Part shown: in pieces, positions 15,294 to 22,258 of the stretch
Layout: every line of letters begins with the position of its first letter
Position numbering within the stretch: position 1 is the first letter of the stretch
DNA from: an uncultured delta proteobacterium
GTDB lineage: Bacteria > Bdellovibrionota_C > UBA2361 > OMII01
Assembly: GCA_903920005.1 (NCBI GenBank)
Contig: CAIXKI010000095.1
Coordinates: 1 to 32,961 of the forward strand
Reading direction: 5' to 3'
DNA length: 32,961 bases
Notes under the pieces: generated by a model
Databases searched by the model: none
What the model was told of the DNA's origin: nothing
What the model saw: the letters and a program-made list of their open reading frames with translations, nothing else
Program-made: the position numbers and the translations under genes

Positions 15294-17213
15294 ATGCGTA
15301 AGTCATCTACCTCGCAGACACAGAGTGATAGCACCCCTCTATCCGTTCCTCGATCTGAGGTTGGGGGTCGTCTGTCCGCGCAAAATCGTCTTCCGCATCT
15401 CTTAAAAGAGGCGCTTACGGACGAGGTCTCTCCGTTGCGCGCTCAGTTGTCTCCGACCCAAATACACTTTCTCAGGGCAATGTACCTTCCGCAGGTGCCC
15501 GATGTGTCTGATGGACGAGGCTCTCAGTTTCAACATAGAGCTAATGGATGCTCCCTCCTCTTCAACGCCCTACGCGATCGGGGGTACACGCGCGAGGATA
15601 TAAAAGCTGGGCTTGAAAAAATTAGGTACCTCGATTTCATTGAACGAGCGGATCGGTGGATTGATGATGGAGGGGAGTCTCCGACCAGCCCCATGCCGGG
15701 AGATTTCACTTTCGATGTTCGCAGTCGAGCGCACGCCAAATCCGCGTTTGAAGGCTTCGCTCGTCACCTTCGTATTCCACCGAACTTTTTTGATCACGGG
15801 ACGATTACCCCCTTCTTCCGTCCATCTCTTGGCTTTGGCTTTAGAGTTTCGCAAGGCGGGGAGGTTCATTCGTTTTTGTGCGCTTCCCTGGATGGCGTTC
15901 GATTGGCACCGATTAATGAGGATACGCAGGCCTTAGCTCGTGGCATGGCTTCTGAAAGCAGACACCTGATGAATCTGTTGCAAAGAAGAGCCCCAGTCGA
16001 TCTGAATTTGGCGTTTGCTCCCCGTCCTATTACGTATGCTGGTACCCTTCGAATAGCGCTTTTTCCTAAGAACGACCCGAGGTGCCCCCCTGCATACGTC
16101 TATCTTCCGCCCTCGGTGAGGGAGTCAGCCCTAGTGCCCAATGTGGATGGCCAGGCGTTGATGCGAGGAGAGAGAGTTGTTGAGCTTCGGGGAAAAGAAT
16201 CGAAGAAATTAGTCGCGACGGTAACGCTACACGCGGAGACTGTTACACTGGCGACCCTAAAGCTTGCGCCTGATGTTAGCGCGTCCCTCTACACGCGTTT
16301 CCGCCCGGTCTCCCTATATCTTCGTGGGCTAATCCAGGAGCCGCCGGACCCTATTAGGACTGACATTAATCGACGGGAGATCGGCAATGGGGTCAACCAA
16401 CGCGTTCTCCTTGGCTGTCAAATGGTGGTGCCGGCCTGGTACCCTTTCCGCACGATCACCGTGCATCCGATCGTATCCCCTACAGGGTCGCGCCACGTGG
16501 GCCTTTACCCGCTCGGAGTTTCTCCAGTTTCAACACCGCCACTAAAAGCATTTATGCTCGATGAGGCGAAAACTGAATGGCATCCGATAGAAGTAACTGC
16601 CGCATGGAACGGTCCGAACGCGGAGCGAGATAGATTGTTTAAACTTATTGAGCGAGTCACGGGCTCAAACGCGACAGTCTCTCGCGATGCGTGGGTAGAG
16701 TTTCATGAGTGGGTAAAGAATGATCCCGTTCTTTTACATAGCCTGCTATGCGTGCGAGAAAATCCGGTGTCATTGCGTAACGTGCCTGGTGTTAAAAAGC
16801 TCTTTGAGTTGCCAGGCTGGGAAAGTTATGAGGCGCGCATCCGCCGCGCAGTGTGTGCATATCAAGCTAGTTCGGTGCCGTTTGTAGCGAATCTCTTACT
16901 CGAGGCAGGCGCCCCGAGAAGCTATAAAGTTGAGTGGCTTCTTAAAAGGATGCCGGACTATGCGACCGGACCGGAGGCTAAACCGCTTGACCTCTTGACT
17001 CGACTTGCCGTTACGGCGCCGAAAGAGTTGGAGACCACGCTTGCGGAGATTCGAAGCAGCCCTCTTACGGAGTTCGCTCGACTCGTGGGTGACTATAGGT
17101 CTGTTTCAGAATTAATCGGAGGGCTCTCAAGAGTTGCCCCGGATCCCCTACGGCTGCGTCCGTGGAGGGAAGATCGTGAGTATGGAGCTACCGAACTCAG
17201 TTCTGAATCCTAG
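15294..17213 (+). CDS. Large hypothetical protein
   Basis: This 639-residue protein has no motif I recognise. Residues 1-30 are Ser/Thr-rich and probably disordered. The body mixes helices with long beta-type stretches, such as KLVATVTLHAETVTLATLKL about 302-321 and a region at 375-400, and the C-terminal 180 residues are helical. There is no signal peptide or membrane segment. Only a poor ribosome binding site precedes ATG 15294. It is on the same strand as the CDPS-like/racemase pair but 455 bases upstream, so co-transcription is uncertain. The style (N-terminal Ser/Thr/Pro tail, no homology) resembles the N-terminal part of the large helicase and the 19344-20060 product. Confidence 0.65.
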   Translation: MRKSSTSQTQSDSTPLSVPRSEVGGRLSAQNRLPHLLKEALTDEVSPLRAQLSPTQIHFLRAMYLPQVPDVSDGRGSQFQHRANGCSLLFNALRDRGYTREDIKAGLEKIRYLDFIERADRWIDDGGESPTSPMPGDFTFDVRSRAHAKSAFEGFARHLRIPPNFFDHGTITPFFRPSLGFGFRVSQGGEVHSFLCASLDGVRLAPINEDTQALARGMASESRHLMNLLQRRAPVDLNLAFAPRPITYAGTLRIALFPKNDPRCPPAYVYLPPSVRESALVPNVDGQALMRGERVVELRGKESKKLVATVTLHAETVTLATLKLAPDVSASLYTRFRPVSLYLRGLIQEPPDPIRTDINRREIGNGVNQRVLLGCQMVVPAWYPFRTITVHPIVSPTGSRHVGLYPLGVSPVSTPPLKAFMLDEAKTEWHPIEVTAAWNGPNAERDRLFKLIERVTGSNATVSRDAWVEFHEWVKNDPVLLHSLLCVRENPVSLRNVPGVKKLFELPGWESYEARIRRAVCAYQASSVPFVANLLLEAGAPRSYKVEWLLKRMPDYATGPEAKPLDLLTRLAVTAPKELETTLAEIRSSPLTEFARLVGDYRSVSELIGGLSRVAPDPLRLRPWREDREYGATELSSES

Positions 17214-17668: not shown

Positions 17669-18568
17669 ATGAATATTCAAAGCGCCTCTACAACACGACA
17701 CAGCTCGGAGAATCCGCTGCTTATCTCGAATCCAGCATTGCTTGAGGGGAGGCGTAGCTTTATCGGAATGAGCAGTGGCGCTAAGGGAGTTCCTATCGAC
17801 ATCGTGGCGCTTCTCCTTGCATCCCGGCCAGCAAAAGAAACGACCGTTCTTTGTACCGACGTCTTTCAAAGTATGAATGGGATTCAGGCGAACGAGGTGC
17901 GAAACAACACCGCAGAGTTCGAGGCCACTGTGCTTGCCATAGCGAGAGCATTTCAGATGAATGTTACGATCATAAAAACCTCTGAAATATACGCGTCGGA
18001 TCGATATCAGGAGTCGCTGCGCCGATTTGACGACGGGTTGACGGGGCAGGGGTTGCGCGAGATGTGTCTGGAGCTTGTTCCGGAGCGACATCGCGGCAAT
18101 CCAAAAGCACTGCTGTATCCCCTTCATCAGCTTGCAATGTGCGATTTCGTACGAGCGGAGTTGGGGCTTGAGGTCAAGATCGGTCCGCGCTCGGAAGTTC
18201 CTTATGATTCGGTTCTGGCAAAATATGGCGCGCGCCTTTCCTTCGCCTATGTAACGGACGCGCTTCCCCTCGAAACGAAGGGCGAGCCTCGTCCCGTAGT
18301 GCATTACGTGGCAGGCCATCGAGAGAATGGAACCAGGTTGATGTGTCACGTATCTAGAGAGGAGGCGCTGCGAAGGATCGCTCTTAGCTCGGAAAGTACC
18401 CTAAAATACCTTCTCAAGATGTCGCAGGTAGCTGGGAGGTGTCTTTGGCGTTGTAGAATCACCGCCGGAAAACGAGCTCGAACTCTCCTTAGAGCGGTTA
18501 CGACGGATCGTGCCGGAGCTCTTCGTCATGAATGTTTTGGACCCCCTGCACGATACGCTGCGGGGTGA
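17669..18568 (+). CDS. Divergent cyclodipeptide synthase-like protein (frame as read)
   Basis: As read, this is 299 residues. Its layout resembles tRNA-dependent cyclodipeptide synthases (CDPS), which use two aminoacyl-tRNAs to make a cyclic dipeptide on a class Ic aaRS-like Rossmann fold. FIGMSSGA (31-38) corresponds to AlbC LIGISAGN, with S35 at the nucleophile position. A helical middle follows (NVTIIKTSEIY, then RYQESLRRFDDGL). ALLYPLHQ (147-154) corresponds to the family NYVLAE helix, keeping Tyr150 but with Gln154 for the catalytic Glu. DSVLAKY (180-186) matches SSVLCYH with Tyr186. The spacing between the last two motifs is about 12 residues longer than in AlbC. Residues after about 255 look out of frame (see 18432-18647). 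ATG 17669 gives a CDPS-like N terminus; the upstream extension does not. It could also be another HUP-fold nucleotidyl enzyme. Confidence 0.5.
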   Translation: MNIQSASTTRHSSENPLLISNPALLEGRRSFIGMSSGAKGVPIDIVALLLASRPAKETTVLCTDVFQSMNGIQANEVRNNTAEFEATVLAIARAFQMNVTIIKTSEIYASDRYQESLRRFDDGLTGQGLREMCLELVPERHRGNPKALLYPLHQLAMCDFVRAELGLEVKIGPRSEVPYDSVLAKYGARLSFAYVTDALPLETKGEPRPVVHYVAGHRENGTRLMCHVSREEALRRIALSSESTLKYLLKMSQVAGRCLWRCRITAGKRARTLLRAVTTDRAGALRHECFGPPARYAAG

Positions 18569-18647
18569 AAGGTCACTAACAGGAGCTTTGCGGACCTCGG
18601 TGCTGCCCAGCAGCTTTAGAGAGAGCTTCCAAAAGGAGGCGCTATGA
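18432..18647 (+). other. Apparent +1-frame C-terminal continuation of the CDPS-like gene
   Basis: The frame beginning after the TAG at 18429-18431 is open to a TGA at 18645-18647. It encodes a normal-looking acidic/amphipathic sequence (GVVESPPENELELSLERLRR, then VMNVLDPLHDTL and SSFRESFQKEAL), while the annotated frame here gives Arg/Cys-rich, low-quality sequence. Its stop overlaps the racemase start as ATGA (18644-18647), a typical translational-coupling junction. The real product is probably about 325 residues, made by frameshifting or disrupted by one inserted base near 18435-18446. Confidence 0.6.
18434..18449 (+). promoter_or_regulatory. Candidate +1 frameshift site resembling that of prfB
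   Basis: The zero frame reads GGG AGG TGT CTT TGG C. The E. coli prfB recoding site reads AGG GGG TAT CTT TGA C. Both have a Shine-Dalgarno-like purine hexamer, exactly three bases, then the slippery CTT T. The stop codon of prfB is TGG here. A +1 slip on CTT resumes at GGC (18447), which is exactly the frame open to 18647. It could instead be an ordinary indel or a sequencing error. Confidence 0.35.
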
Positions 18648-19384
18648 GAGTGCCTGGAATATTGGGGGGCTTGGGGCCACAGACAACAGCGGTTTTTTAT
18701 AACGCACTAGCAAAGCTTTCTGATCAAAGTGGAGCCGATCACCGTGCGGGGATGCTTATGGTAAGCGTTCCAATTAAATATTCATACGAGCAGGATGCCA
18801 TTCAGAATGGACAGGGAGAGGAGCGGCTTCTGCCTATGTTGTTCGATAGTGTGCGGCGTCTCGAAGATGGAGGAGCCGATTTTATAGCGATGCCCTGTAA
18901 TTCGTTGCATATCTTTCATGAAGAGTTGCAACGGCGTGCGAGAGTTCCTTTCTTGAATATTGTCGAGGAGACCGCTTCCGTTGTCTCCGCGGAGGGTCAC
19001 AAGCAGGTGGGGCTTCTTGGCTCGCCAATAACGCTGGGCAAGCAGTTATATCAGCGGGACCTTAACAAGAGGGGGATAGAGGCACACCTTCCCGGGACAG
19101 ACGAGTCCGTTGAATTGGCGGCGATTATTCATCGCCTTGTGTTACAAGCCGCGACGGAGAAGGACAGAGACGCCTTCGAACGGATGGTTATGGGAATGTT
19201 GGACCGGGGCGCAGGCGCTGTCATTCTTGCATGCACAGATCTGCAGCTCTTGCTTTCTTCCAGCCTTAAACCGTACGTAATCGACACGCTCGAGGTTTTG
19301 GTAATGGCGACTATGCGGGAGATTCTGAAGGGGGCTAGCGTGGTTAACGGGGACGGCTTGTGTCTCGAAACGCGCCATCCTTGA
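18644..19384 (+). CDS. Aspartate/glutamate racemase family protein
   Basis: This 246-residue cofactor-independent amino acid racemase interconverts L- and D-Asp or Glu using two cysteines. The N-terminal motif is GILGGLGPQTT (5-15). The first catalytic cysteine lies in MPCNSLH (C85; family CNT-x-H) and the second in ILACTDLQLLL (C197; family GCTE). Length is typical. ATG 18644 has a strong ribosome binding site (AAAAGGAGGCGCT) and overlaps the stop of the upstream +1-frame continuation as ATGA, so it is probably translated with the CDPS-like gene. D-amino acid supply for peptidoglycan or for a secondary metabolite are both possible. The 3' end overlaps the convergent gene by 41 bases. Substrate specificity cannot be told from the motifs. 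Confidence 0.88.
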   Translation: MRVPGILGGLGPQTTAVFYNALAKLSDQSGADHRAGMLMVSVPIKYSYEQDAIQNGQGEERLLPMLFDSVRRLEDGGADFIAMPCNSLHIFHEELQRRARVPFLNIVEETASVVSAEGHKQVGLLGSPITLGKQLYQRDLNKRGIEAHLPGTDESVELAAIIHRLVLQAATEKDRDAFERMVMGMLDRGAGAVILACTDLQLLLSSSLKPYVIDTLEVLVMATMREILKGASVVNGDGLCLETRHP

Positions 19385-20060
19385 AGTCGAAGATACGCAC
19401 AGAGGTATAGAGGTTGCAGTGACTCAGCGTCTCCCGTATTTGGGCGTCGGCCTGTCGAGACATGAAGAGCTTGTTGTCCAGAAATTTCGCCTCATCATAG
19501 TCGAAACCCATGCCCATCGCACGACGTTGTCGCTCGGTGGCCTGGGAGCTTAGACGCTCCTCCAATGAGATAGGCTGTTCGTGCTTCACCGTGAGTCCCG
19601 ATTGAAGGAGTAGGTCCCTGATATGCGCGAATCGGACGGTGCCTGATGCTTGACCGGTTGACGCCAGCGCATGGTCGACCGCAATCTTTGAGAGTAATCG
19701 GGGTAGGCCAGTGCCACGAAATGGAGTGAGCAGAAAGTGACCCAGGTCAGTTGGTACGGTAGAAACGAATAGGCGATGTTGCAGTGATAGTCCAACAACC
19801 TCATTTCCCGCCGGAAGGATTGATATCTCGCGACCGTGGTGAGCAAAACGTGCGACGTAATCGCTTCCTTTGTGAGAGAAGGCTGTAATAAGGGTTCCAT
19901 GGGGAGAGGTGAGAGGTGTTGAGAACGAGTGGGTGCGGAAGGTCGCCGTGGCATGAGTATCTGATATCTCCATAGTCGCCACGGTGAGGCCGCGTCTAGG
20001 TAGCCGAAGAGGAGCTTCTTTATCGAAATGTCTGTCGGTTTTGGTCGTCTCTTGAAGCAT
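19344..20060 (-). CDS. Hypothetical protein, possibly GNAT-like
   Basis: This is 238 residues from the preferred ATG 20060; the frame is open further, but the extension overlaps the divergent ABC gene and reads as Pro/Arg-rich non-coding sequence. The ribosome binding site is weak (GAGGGGA about 14 bases upstream). LLTPFRGTGLPRLLSKIAV (111-129) recalls the acetyl-CoA-binding motif A of GNAT acetyltransferases (V-x-P-x-x-R-G-x-G-x-G/L), preceded by beta-rich sequence, but the rest does not clearly match. The C terminus is hydrophilic and overlaps the end of the racemase gene by 41 bases on the opposite strand. Confidence 0.5.
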   Translation of the reverse strand: MLQETTKTDRHFDKEAPLRLPRRGLTVATMEISDTHATATFRTHSFSTPLTSPHGTLITAFSHKGSDYVARFAHHGREISILPAGNEVVGLSLQHRLFVSTVPTDLGHFLLTPFRGTGLPRLLSKIAVDHALASTGQASGTVRFAHIRDLLLQSGLTVKHEQPISLEERLSSQATERQRRAMGMGFDYDEAKFLDNKLFMSRQADAQIRETLSHCNLYTSVRIFDFKDGAFRDTSRPR

Positions 20061-20200
20061 GCGCCTGTTATGCTCCCCTCTCGCTATGTTGAGGCATTCA
20101 GAGAAGGTCCCCAAATGATTGATTGGTTTCGGTGGTTTCCGTACCCTGGGAACGAAAAGGGAAGGGGGCAGCCCATCCCCAGAGCCTAGAGTACATACGA

Positions 20201-22258
20201 ATGAGAGAGCAGAAAGGTCGAAGCGAGGATCCGCAAAGGCAGCAGTCGGCATCCCCACAGGGTGCCCCCGAGCCCCCACTCACAGCTCCGTCCGCGAAGA
20301 TCGATGCTAGCACTGAGTGGAGCGCGGAGCTTCAGAATCCAAAGAGTTCGGTGCTCTCGGCGAGTCCTCGTTTGCTCGAACTCGTGGCTCATTCGGTAGA
20401 AGGAGCCACGCTTACCTTTCGCACCGGATATCTCCTTCTTGGTGAAACGCTCGGCGCGTGGGGAAGGGCGGTTAGTTTGATGACCTCGGCGGCTAAAGGA
20501 TCTCAGAATCTCATTTACGGATTTCTGGGTGCTGGGCTCGTGAATTGTCTTCGAGAGGGGCGGTCAGACTCCGCAACATTCGCCGCGTTTGCGGGCGGCT
20601 TTGCCGCCGTAAAGTTTATAGTTGGGTCCTTTGAAGCGCTCGATCAGAAGCGACAATCACGAGCGGCAGTTGAGGTGGGCGACTTGGGATACCGGGTGAT
20701 GCGTAACGCGCTTCTGACCAAAGATTACGAATCCATGAGAGTCGCGAATATCTCCAACGCGGTGTCGCAGGCAAATGAAAATTTATGGCGATTTCCGCTC
20801 TTCATGGTCGCGACGACCGAAGCGGTTTCTCAGACCGTTGCGCTTGGAATCGCAGGCTATGCCATCTGTAAGGCTCCGATTCCCGTGATCTGTTGCGCGT
20901 TAAGCGCGGCGGCGATCTCCATCGTAAAAAACGTTCACCTCGCCCGCAAAGCCGCGGAGGACGAACCAAAGATAGCGGATCCACGCAGACGAACGTGGTG
21001 GCTGGGTTGGATGACTGTGGATCCGGCTTCGACAAAAGAGGTGCGGATGCTTGGGATCGCGCCAGAACTGGAGCGTAAACGGCAGGCATCTCGCGTTGTC
21101 GCGTGCGACCCGGGGTTTAAACGATCGCACGTCGAGTTCCTCTATAACCTCGCCGACAACCCGGTGTCGGCATTGGCGATGGCGGGGTCGATCTATATGC
21201 TCGGAATGGCAGTAGAGGGAGGCTCCCTGGACCTCGGAACAGCCTCTTTCATCGCGCTCGCGGCGTATCCCTCTTTTGTGCAGACGTTGGGTCAGCTGAG
21301 TACGACACTCGGAAGGCTCTTAGAACACGGGCCACACATTAAGCACTACCAGACGATCGCGACACTGGAACCGGGCATGATATCCCGGCAGCTCGACGTC
21401 CAGCCGAACAAGGTTACGCAGGTGGTTGATCGGATACCGCCGCCAAAATCACTTGAGTTTGTGCATGCTGCCTACTCCTATCCAGACTCATCGGGAAGTA
21501 GAGAGGGTGCTGCCCCCGTCTTCAAAAACGTTAACATCGTCCTCCCCGCCGGAAGCATGGTGATGATCTGTGGCGAAAATGGGGTAGGAAAGTCGACCCT
21601 CTTCGAATGTCTCGTTGGATTGCGTGCGCCGACGGAGGGAGCGTTGCTCATTAATGATCAGCTCCCGGATCCTGCTCAGAAGGGAGAGTGGGCGAAGATG
21701 CTTGGTATATGCTTTCAGGATTTCTACCTGTTTGGTTCCCTGACCTTCCGAGAGATATTGACGATCGGGGCTCCACCGGTCTCTGAGGAGTACTTTAACC
21801 ATGTGCTGAAGGAGACGGGAGTACGGAAAATTCTTGATGAGCAGATTCGCGAGGGCGAAACGACGCGGCCTCGCTTTCCGAAGGGGATCGACTCAACGTT
21901 TGGCGCAACCTTCAAGGATGGTGTTGATCTCTCAGGGGGAGGCAAACAAAAATTCGCGGTCGCGCGCGCGCTGTTGCGACGCCCCGCGGTGATCGTGCTC
22001 GATGAGTTTACGTCGGCCCTCGATCCTGACGATGCCGATCGCATATACGAATTTCTTAAAAACGCCAAGGAGACGATGGGATACTCTCCAACGATTATTT
22101 ACAGCACCCACGACTATCGGCGGGGCAAGTTCGCGGATCAGGTCCTGATGCTTTCTCGAGGTGTCGATGGCTCTATTAAGCATCAGGTCGGTACGTTCGA
22201 TGAGATGCGAAAAGGGGAATCAAGTTTCGCCAATAAGCTGAAGAGCTCCAGCCATTAA
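20201..22258 (+). CDS. ABC transporter, fused membrane and ATP-binding domains
   Basis: This 685-residue half-transporter of exporter type has a disordered Gln/Pro/Ser-rich N terminus (1-55), a membrane region with about six hydrophobic segments between 75 and 365, and an ATPase domain from about 415. Motifs: Walker A GENGVGKST (458-466), Q-loop GICFQDFYLF (502-511), signature LSGGGKQKFAVARALL (577-592), Walker B VIVLDEF (597-603) and H-loop STHDY with H637. The signature reads LSGGG rather than LSGGQ. Such proteins pump lipids, peptides or drugs across the inner membrane as dimers. ATG 20201 has no clear ribosome binding site; the frame is open upstream to TTG 20123. A terminator follows. 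Substrate unknown. Confidence 0.88.
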   Translation: MREQKGRSEDPQRQQSASPQGAPEPPLTAPSAKIDASTEWSAELQNPKSSVLSASPRLLELVAHSVEGATLTFRTGYLLLGETLGAWGRAVSLMTSAAKGSQNLIYGFLGAGLVNCLREGRSDSATFAAFAGGFAAVKFIVGSFEALDQKRQSRAAVEVGDLGYRVMRNALLTKDYESMRVANISNAVSQANENLWRFPLFMVATTEAVSQTVALGIAGYAICKAPIPVICCALSAAAISIVKNVHLARKAAEDEPKIADPRRRTWWLGWMTVDPASTKEVRMLGIAPELERKRQASRVVACDPGFKRSHVEFLYNLADNPVSALAMAGSIYMLGMAVEGGSLDLGTASFIALAAYPSFVQTLGQLSTTLGRLLEHGPHIKHYQTIATLEPGMISRQLDVQPNKVTQVVDRIPPPKSLEFVHAAYSYPDSSGSREGAAPVFKNVNIVLPAGSMVMICGENGVGKSTLFECLVGLRAPTEGALLINDQLPDPAQKGEWAKMLGICFQDFYLFGSLTFREILTIGAPPVSEEYFNHVLKETGVRKILDEQIREGETTRPRFPKGIDSTFGATFKDGVDLSGGGKQKFAVARALLRRPAVIVLDEFTSALDPDDADRIYEFLKNAKETMGYSPTIIYSTHDYRRGKFADQVLMLSRGVDGSIKHQVGTFDEMRKGESSFANKLKSSSH

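Follow-up and report, generated by a model that had tools for sequence, protein, structure and literature searches.

Which family of enzymes is encoded by the gene that precedes an Asp/Glu racemase gene in the DNA analysed here, and could the two products act in a common pathway? The whole stretch (hereinafter, the window) comprises 32,961 nucleotides of an uncultured delta proteobacterium and belongs to a 257-contig assembly (contig C95). In a preliminary description, the upstream gene was read as a divergent cyclodipeptide synthase (CDPS) coupled to the racemase, and the pairing of an aminoacyl-tRNA-using enzyme with a racemase was proposed to be new. CDPSs are structurally related to TyrRS and TrpRS, which are class Ic aminoacyl-tRNA synthetases (aaRSs). 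The proposed type of partnership is not new because NozR, an Asp/Glu-racemase homologue, is already known to interconvert the stereoisomers of a CDPS product in nocardioazine biosynthesis (PMC10156859); a racemase link of the upstream gene is thus plausible and has a precedent.

The contig begins with the end of a 23S rRNA gene (1-132) and a 5S rRNA gene (314-424). The gene pair itself is flanked by long frames at 15294-17213 (639 aa, plus strand) and 19344-20279 (311 aa, minus strand), neither of which has a Pfam match.

Reading frames and gene coordinates

The region 17669-18647, previously taken for a single gene, consists of two frames rather than one (Table 1). Frame 0, starting from the ATG at 17669, is terminated at 18566-18568 after 299 aa, and the stop that overlaps the racemase ATG (TGA, 18645-18647) belongs to the +1 frame. 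The racemase does follow the upstream gene as described, but the ATGA junction is reached only in the +1 frame. Entry into this frame is possible only between its last stop (TAG, ~18429) and the frame-0 stop. The +1 tail is probably the true C-terminus of the upstream protein: it can be aligned with the end of an intact homologue from the genome SSF28, and its codon usage is slightly better than that of the frame-0 tail in this part of the gene (0.16 vs 0.086).

Table 1. Features of the gene pair in the window and of the homologue in SSF28
Feature	Position	Strand	Basis
Class-Ic aaRS/CDPS-superfamily-like protein, frame 0; predicted Rossmann (HUP) core and beginning of helical C-terminal region	17669..18430	+	ORF, full-length homologue, two models, weak TIGR04539 match
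FIGMSSGAKGVPI, first beta-strand and loop	17759..17797	+	
YPLHQ	18116..18130	+	class-Ic aaRS YPLxQ signature; CDPS Tyr178/Glu182 region
Likely frame-shift site	18431..18448	+	sequence, codon listing, pattern count
Probable C-terminal region, +1 frame (LGVVESPPENELELSLERLRRIVPELFVMNVLDPLHDTL...)	18444..18647	+	homologue alignment, by-eye match to Mj TyrRS C-terminus, codon usage
ATGA stop/start overlap of +1-frame C-terminus and racemase	18644..18647	+	
Asp/Glu racemase-family protein	18644..19384	+	PF01177, TIGR00035, Cys motifs
SSF28 homologue, intact, full-length	L007:5980-6969 = L004:6271-7263		

The likely site of the shift reads GGGAGG TGT CTT TGG (C). Here, the Shine-Dalgarno-like hexamer GGGAGG lies three bases 5' of CTT T, in the spacing and register of the prfB +1 site, with a Trp codon in place of the stop, and the pattern GGAGGNNNCTTT occurs only once in the window. 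The prfB gene of this genome itself has no frameshift, so the likeness is a resemblance only. The shift may stem from an assembly error, a mutation or programmed recoding. No riboswitch or T-box was detected near the gene pair by an RNA-family scan.

Family and fold of the upstream protein

Profile searches do not bear out the assignment to CDPSs. Nothing relevant was found in Pfam for the upstream protein: there was no match to PF16715, and none to PF00579 at E<=10 with hmmscan. The sole NCBIfam match was to the CDPS model TIGR04539, which is colinear with the protein and scores far below its cut-off (E=0.011, 15.3 bits vs 45). With hhalign, the comparison with a profile of nine CDPSs, which includes no recognised XYP members, was null, and none of the separate TyrRS, TrpRS and CDPS profiles exceeded the shuffles. 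The combined TyrRS and TrpRS profile scored 25.3 against a null maximum of 20.8, that is, above 100 of the 100 column-shuffled nulls, with the signal located around and after the KMSKS region. A second global sequence-profile test, employing per-protein shuffles and decoys, yielded no significance for either aaRSs or CDPSs; this test is underpowered because it missed the known relation between TyrRS and CDPS (Mj TyrRS vs CDPS, Z 0.26). Sequence-profile statistics with free end gaps were uninformative.

The comparison of predicted structures, suggested together with the CDPS call, speaks for the superfamily, albeit with models of low confidence. AlphaFold models of the window protein and of the homologue, each made with two sequences, reach pLDDT values of 45 and 36, respectively. 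The best 50 Foldseek matches of both models among 350,542 chains are almost exclusively TyrRS, TrpRS and CDPS, with CDPSs ranking high for both and no E-value below 0.001. In structure comparison, all 50 matches listed for the homologue model are class-Ic aaRSs; this model, at pLDDT 36, aligns with whole TyrRSs including the C-terminal domain (Z 8.6, 208 residues, 4.4 A), and residues 229-300 of the window model match C-terminal parts of TrpRS and TyrRS. Best Z-scores of 7-8 may be background in such a comparison, so the weight is put on the uniformity of the list and on the long alignment. Overall, the fold is probably class-Ic aaRS/CDPS-like, an assignment that is supported but not proven, and the C-terminal extension appears to resemble that of TyrRS and TrpRS, not CDPSs.

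In a search of the genome itself, the only synthetases of this type to come up were a normal TyrRS and a normal TrpRS. It also encodes a genuine CDPS, on contig C147 (L013:1480-2907; 125-127 bits with TIGR04539), whose single 475-aa frame continues at the C-terminus into a fused domain resembling solute-binding proteins (EhuB-like, 39.9 bits); the fusion is unusual, and the contig is only 4.2 kb long.

Motifs and catalytic residues

The motifs on which the CDPS reading had been based are present in the window protein, namely, FIGMSSG with its Ser (residues 31-37), YPLHQ with its Tyr (150-154) and VLAKY (182-186), as are the departures reported with them: Gln in place of Glu, Ala at the position of AlbC N40 and Gly after the second Tyr. 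As a family signature, these residues fail in the comparison with the homologue. FIGMSSG corresponds to FVGLGYG, so that Ser35 (placed against AlbC by eye) is replaced by Gly and the nucleophile Ser is not a conserved trait of the two-member family; the Tyr of VLAKY is replaced by Met; and YPLHQ corresponds to YTLNE in the Tyr178/Glu182 region, with Tyr150 retained and Gln154 replaced by Glu. The catalytic Ser and Glu are therefore found together in neither member, the window protein having Ser and Gln, and the homologue Gly and Glu. Judged by spacing, the Tyr202 position falls on the Gly-Pro of K(I/V)GP, which is conserved, and there is no conserved Tyr to match it. In active CDPSs, Ser37 and Tyr202 are strictly conserved, and Tyr178 and Glu182 are well conserved (PMC5935735); the signature with Tyr202 is NYH or XYP, and the subfamilies are described in PMC5816076.

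The blocks common to both members are GVPID (as GxxGVPID), K(I/V)GP (KxGP), YD and PxPVVHY. GVPID occupies the place of HxGH in aaRSs; neither HxGH nor KMSKS occurs in the window protein or in the homologue. In a joint alignment with aaRSs, SFIGMSSGAKGVPID lies under the strand and the HxGH region, YPLHQ under YPLxQ, and VKIGPRSE near the VELGGTDQ region.

The preliminary family call is accordingly supported at the level of the superfamily, to which the structural matches to TyrRS, TrpRS and CDPS and the TIGR04539 hint point, and not for CDPSs proper, given the residues, the C-terminal region and the null profiles. Plain CDPS identity was rejected on the basis of the non-conserved residues and the null profile tests, and the label that suits the product of the upstream gene best is class-Ic aaRS/CDPS-superfamily protein with lost or altered catalytic motifs.

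The racemase and the neighbourhood of the homologue

The downstream protein belongs to the Asp/Glu racemase family, with 128 bits against PF01177 (E=4.5e-37, cut-off 31) and 151 bits against TIGR00035 (cut-off 93.1), and carries the catalytic cysteines in PCNSLH (from residue 84) and ACTDL (from residue 196). Its best solved relative is the aspartate racemase 1jfl (107 bits); with the cysteate racemase model CuyB (NF052483), it scores 156.9 bits and does not reach the equivalog cut-off of 190. Relatives of the racemase in two other genomes (G018 and G020) adjoin other genes and lack an aaRS-like neighbour. The one in G018 (L098:4182-6104, 36% identity) has an MFS transporter gene immediately downstream.

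The only homologue of the upstream protein that was found is a 330-aa protein of the Oligoflexia MAG SSF28 (JAIBBU010000002.1; E=1.5e-27, ~30% identity). Contig scans with the single protein as a query revealed no relatives, and those with the two-row alignment revealed SSF28 only; a profile search of 382 genomes yielded the two family members. No copies of the aaRS-like gene were detected in 11 genomes of the same genus or in 32 other genomes of the class among the 382, and no relatives in viral contigs or, by tblastn, in plasmids. A match in G060 (L003, E=8e-4) was discarded as a short chance match within an unrelated 95-aa frame.

The homologue does not share the exact pairing with an Asp/Glu racemase. 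In SSF28, the intact homologue overlaps, via ATGA, a 452-aa gene without a family match, followed 12 bases on by an MR/MLE enzyme with KIKL, ADES and DLDMD motifs, which among solved structures is closest to dipeptide epimerases (3rit, 122.7 bits, and 3jva). The 452-aa gene (L004:7260-8618) and a 601-aa gene of the same-genus genome G001 (L101:5090-6895) form one family without a Pfam match, each being located immediately upstream of a dipeptide-epimerase-like gene; in G001, this pair occurs without the aaRS-like gene. With the racemase in the window and the epimerase in SSF28, both members of the rare family share an operon with a stereo-inverting enzyme, albeit from different superfamilies. 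Because there are few such genes per genome, this co-occurrence is a suggestive hint of coupling, with n=2 and a grouping made post hoc. The racemase and epimerase relatives that lack an aaRS-like neighbour speak against tight coupling.

Proposed function and alternative explanations

We tentatively propose, with a probability of about 0.4, that the upstream protein is a degenerate class-Ic aaRS-like enzyme that uses charged tRNA, and that the racemase acts on what this enzyme makes or furnishes a D-amino acid. The protein would combine a Rossmann (HUP) core with a helical C-terminal domain of the TyrRS/TrpRS type, as predicted by the models. Without HxGH and KMSKS, ATP-dependent activation of amino acids is not expected of it. 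Instead, it might take an already charged tRNA and use the aminoacyl group to modify another amino acid or a small acceptor, in analogy to CDPSs and to SbzA, the IleRS-like aminoacyl-tRNA-dependent transferase of SB-203208 biosynthesis (PMC12945691). The co-translated racemase would then invert an alpha-carbon of the product or provide a D-amino acid. The combination of a tRNA-dependent synthase and a stereo-inverting enzyme is a plausible, unproven hypothesis; the use of tRNA, the formation of the bond and the functional coupling with the racemase are the steps that we infer.

Considerably less credence is given to the broader claim of an uncharacterised class-Ic aaRS lineage that has degenerated on its own, apart from CDPSs, and forms dipeptides or conjugates in an aminoacyl-tRNA-dependent manner, the stereocentres of which are inverted by racemases or dipeptide epimerases of the same operon, with the full-length enzyme possibly produced via a prfB-like +1 frameshift in the window species. 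If true, a second lineage that keeps the synthetase C-terminal domain but lacks the ATP-activation motifs would help to explain the conversion of synthetases into peptide-forming enzymes, and an additional aminoacyl-tRNA-dependent route to small molecules containing D-amino acids would exist in little-studied bacteria.

Among the alternatives, a TyrRS/TrpRS paralogue without catalytic activity, which would act as a sensor of an amino acid, of uncharged tRNA or of a metabolite and as a regulator of or scaffold for the racemase, is unlikely but deserves consideration. Regulatory subunits of the HisZ type that are derived from aaRSs exist and would be a precedent for a protein which, like this one, has lost both ATP-binding motifs without a conserved catalytic substitute. 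However, the partner enzyme of the homologue is a different one, and the preservation of GxxGVPID, PxPVVHY and KxGP at ~30% overall identity suggests an active site.

It is rather improbable that the protein is a bona fide, very divergent CDPS with an extra C-terminal domain, the diketopiperazine of which is epimerised by the racemase in the manner of NozR. The colinear, if weak, TIGR04539 match, the high rank of CDPS structures in both Foldseek lists, and Ser35 and Tyr150 at the nucleophile and Tyr178 positions all favour this possibility, and CDPSs of the XYP subfamily vary widely, some having additional C-terminal domains (PMC5816076). These points are outweighed by the Gly of the homologue at the strictly conserved Ser37 position (PMC5935735), by the lack of a conserved Tyr that would fit Tyr202 by spacing, by Gln in place of Glu182 in the window protein and by the null profile alignment, although the profile contains no recognised XYP members.

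The odds are likewise poor that the window copy is a pseudogene, or that the neighbours are unrelated, an ordinary racemase merely adjoining a gene that was acquired horizontally and is decaying. Such a history would account for the frame shift, for the lack of copies in the 11 same-genus genomes and for the racemase homologues that elsewhere occur alone or next to an MFS transporter. Yet a one-base assembly error explains the shift equally well, the remaining frame is open for ~250 codons, over which both codon usage and GC3 are normal, and the ATGA coupling is of the same kind as in the homologue. Finally, an unrelated fold, with structural matches that are artefacts of shallow alignments, would agree with the low pLDDT, the Foldseek E-values and the mostly null sequence tests but is highly unlikely, given that the match lists of both models centre on one superfamily, in agreement with the independent TIGR04539 hint.

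Comparison with known systems

With the class-Ic aaRSs TyrRS and TrpRS, the upstream protein shares a similar size, a YPLxQ-like block and, as predicted, a Rossmann core with a helical C-terminal domain over the whole length; it differs in lacking HxGH, KMSKS and a significant PF00579 match. The likeness to CDPSs (PF16715/TIGR04539; AlbC, Rv2275 and YvmC) consists of the predicted superfamily fold, the weak profile match and, in the window copy, Ser and Tyr at two motif positions, whereas the Ser-Glu pair and an equivalent of Tyr202 by spacing are missing from the family, an extra C-terminal domain is predicted and the profile comparison is null. The window racemase and NozR share the family and the two catalytic cysteines, and the partner of NozR uses aminoacyl-tRNA, as the window protein presumably does; that partner, however, is a true CDPS whose gene lies elsewhere in the genome, in contrast to the overlapping genes of the window, the candidate in which is not a CDPS. 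The MR/MLE (enolase) dipeptide epimerases (3rit, 3jva and 1jpm) include the product of the third gene of the SSF28 operon, but none is encoded next to the window gene. SbzA, although derived from the IleRS lineage with its editing domain and not TyrRS/TrpRS-like, sets a precedent for a class-I aaRS-like protein that functions as an aminoacyl-tRNA-dependent transferase.
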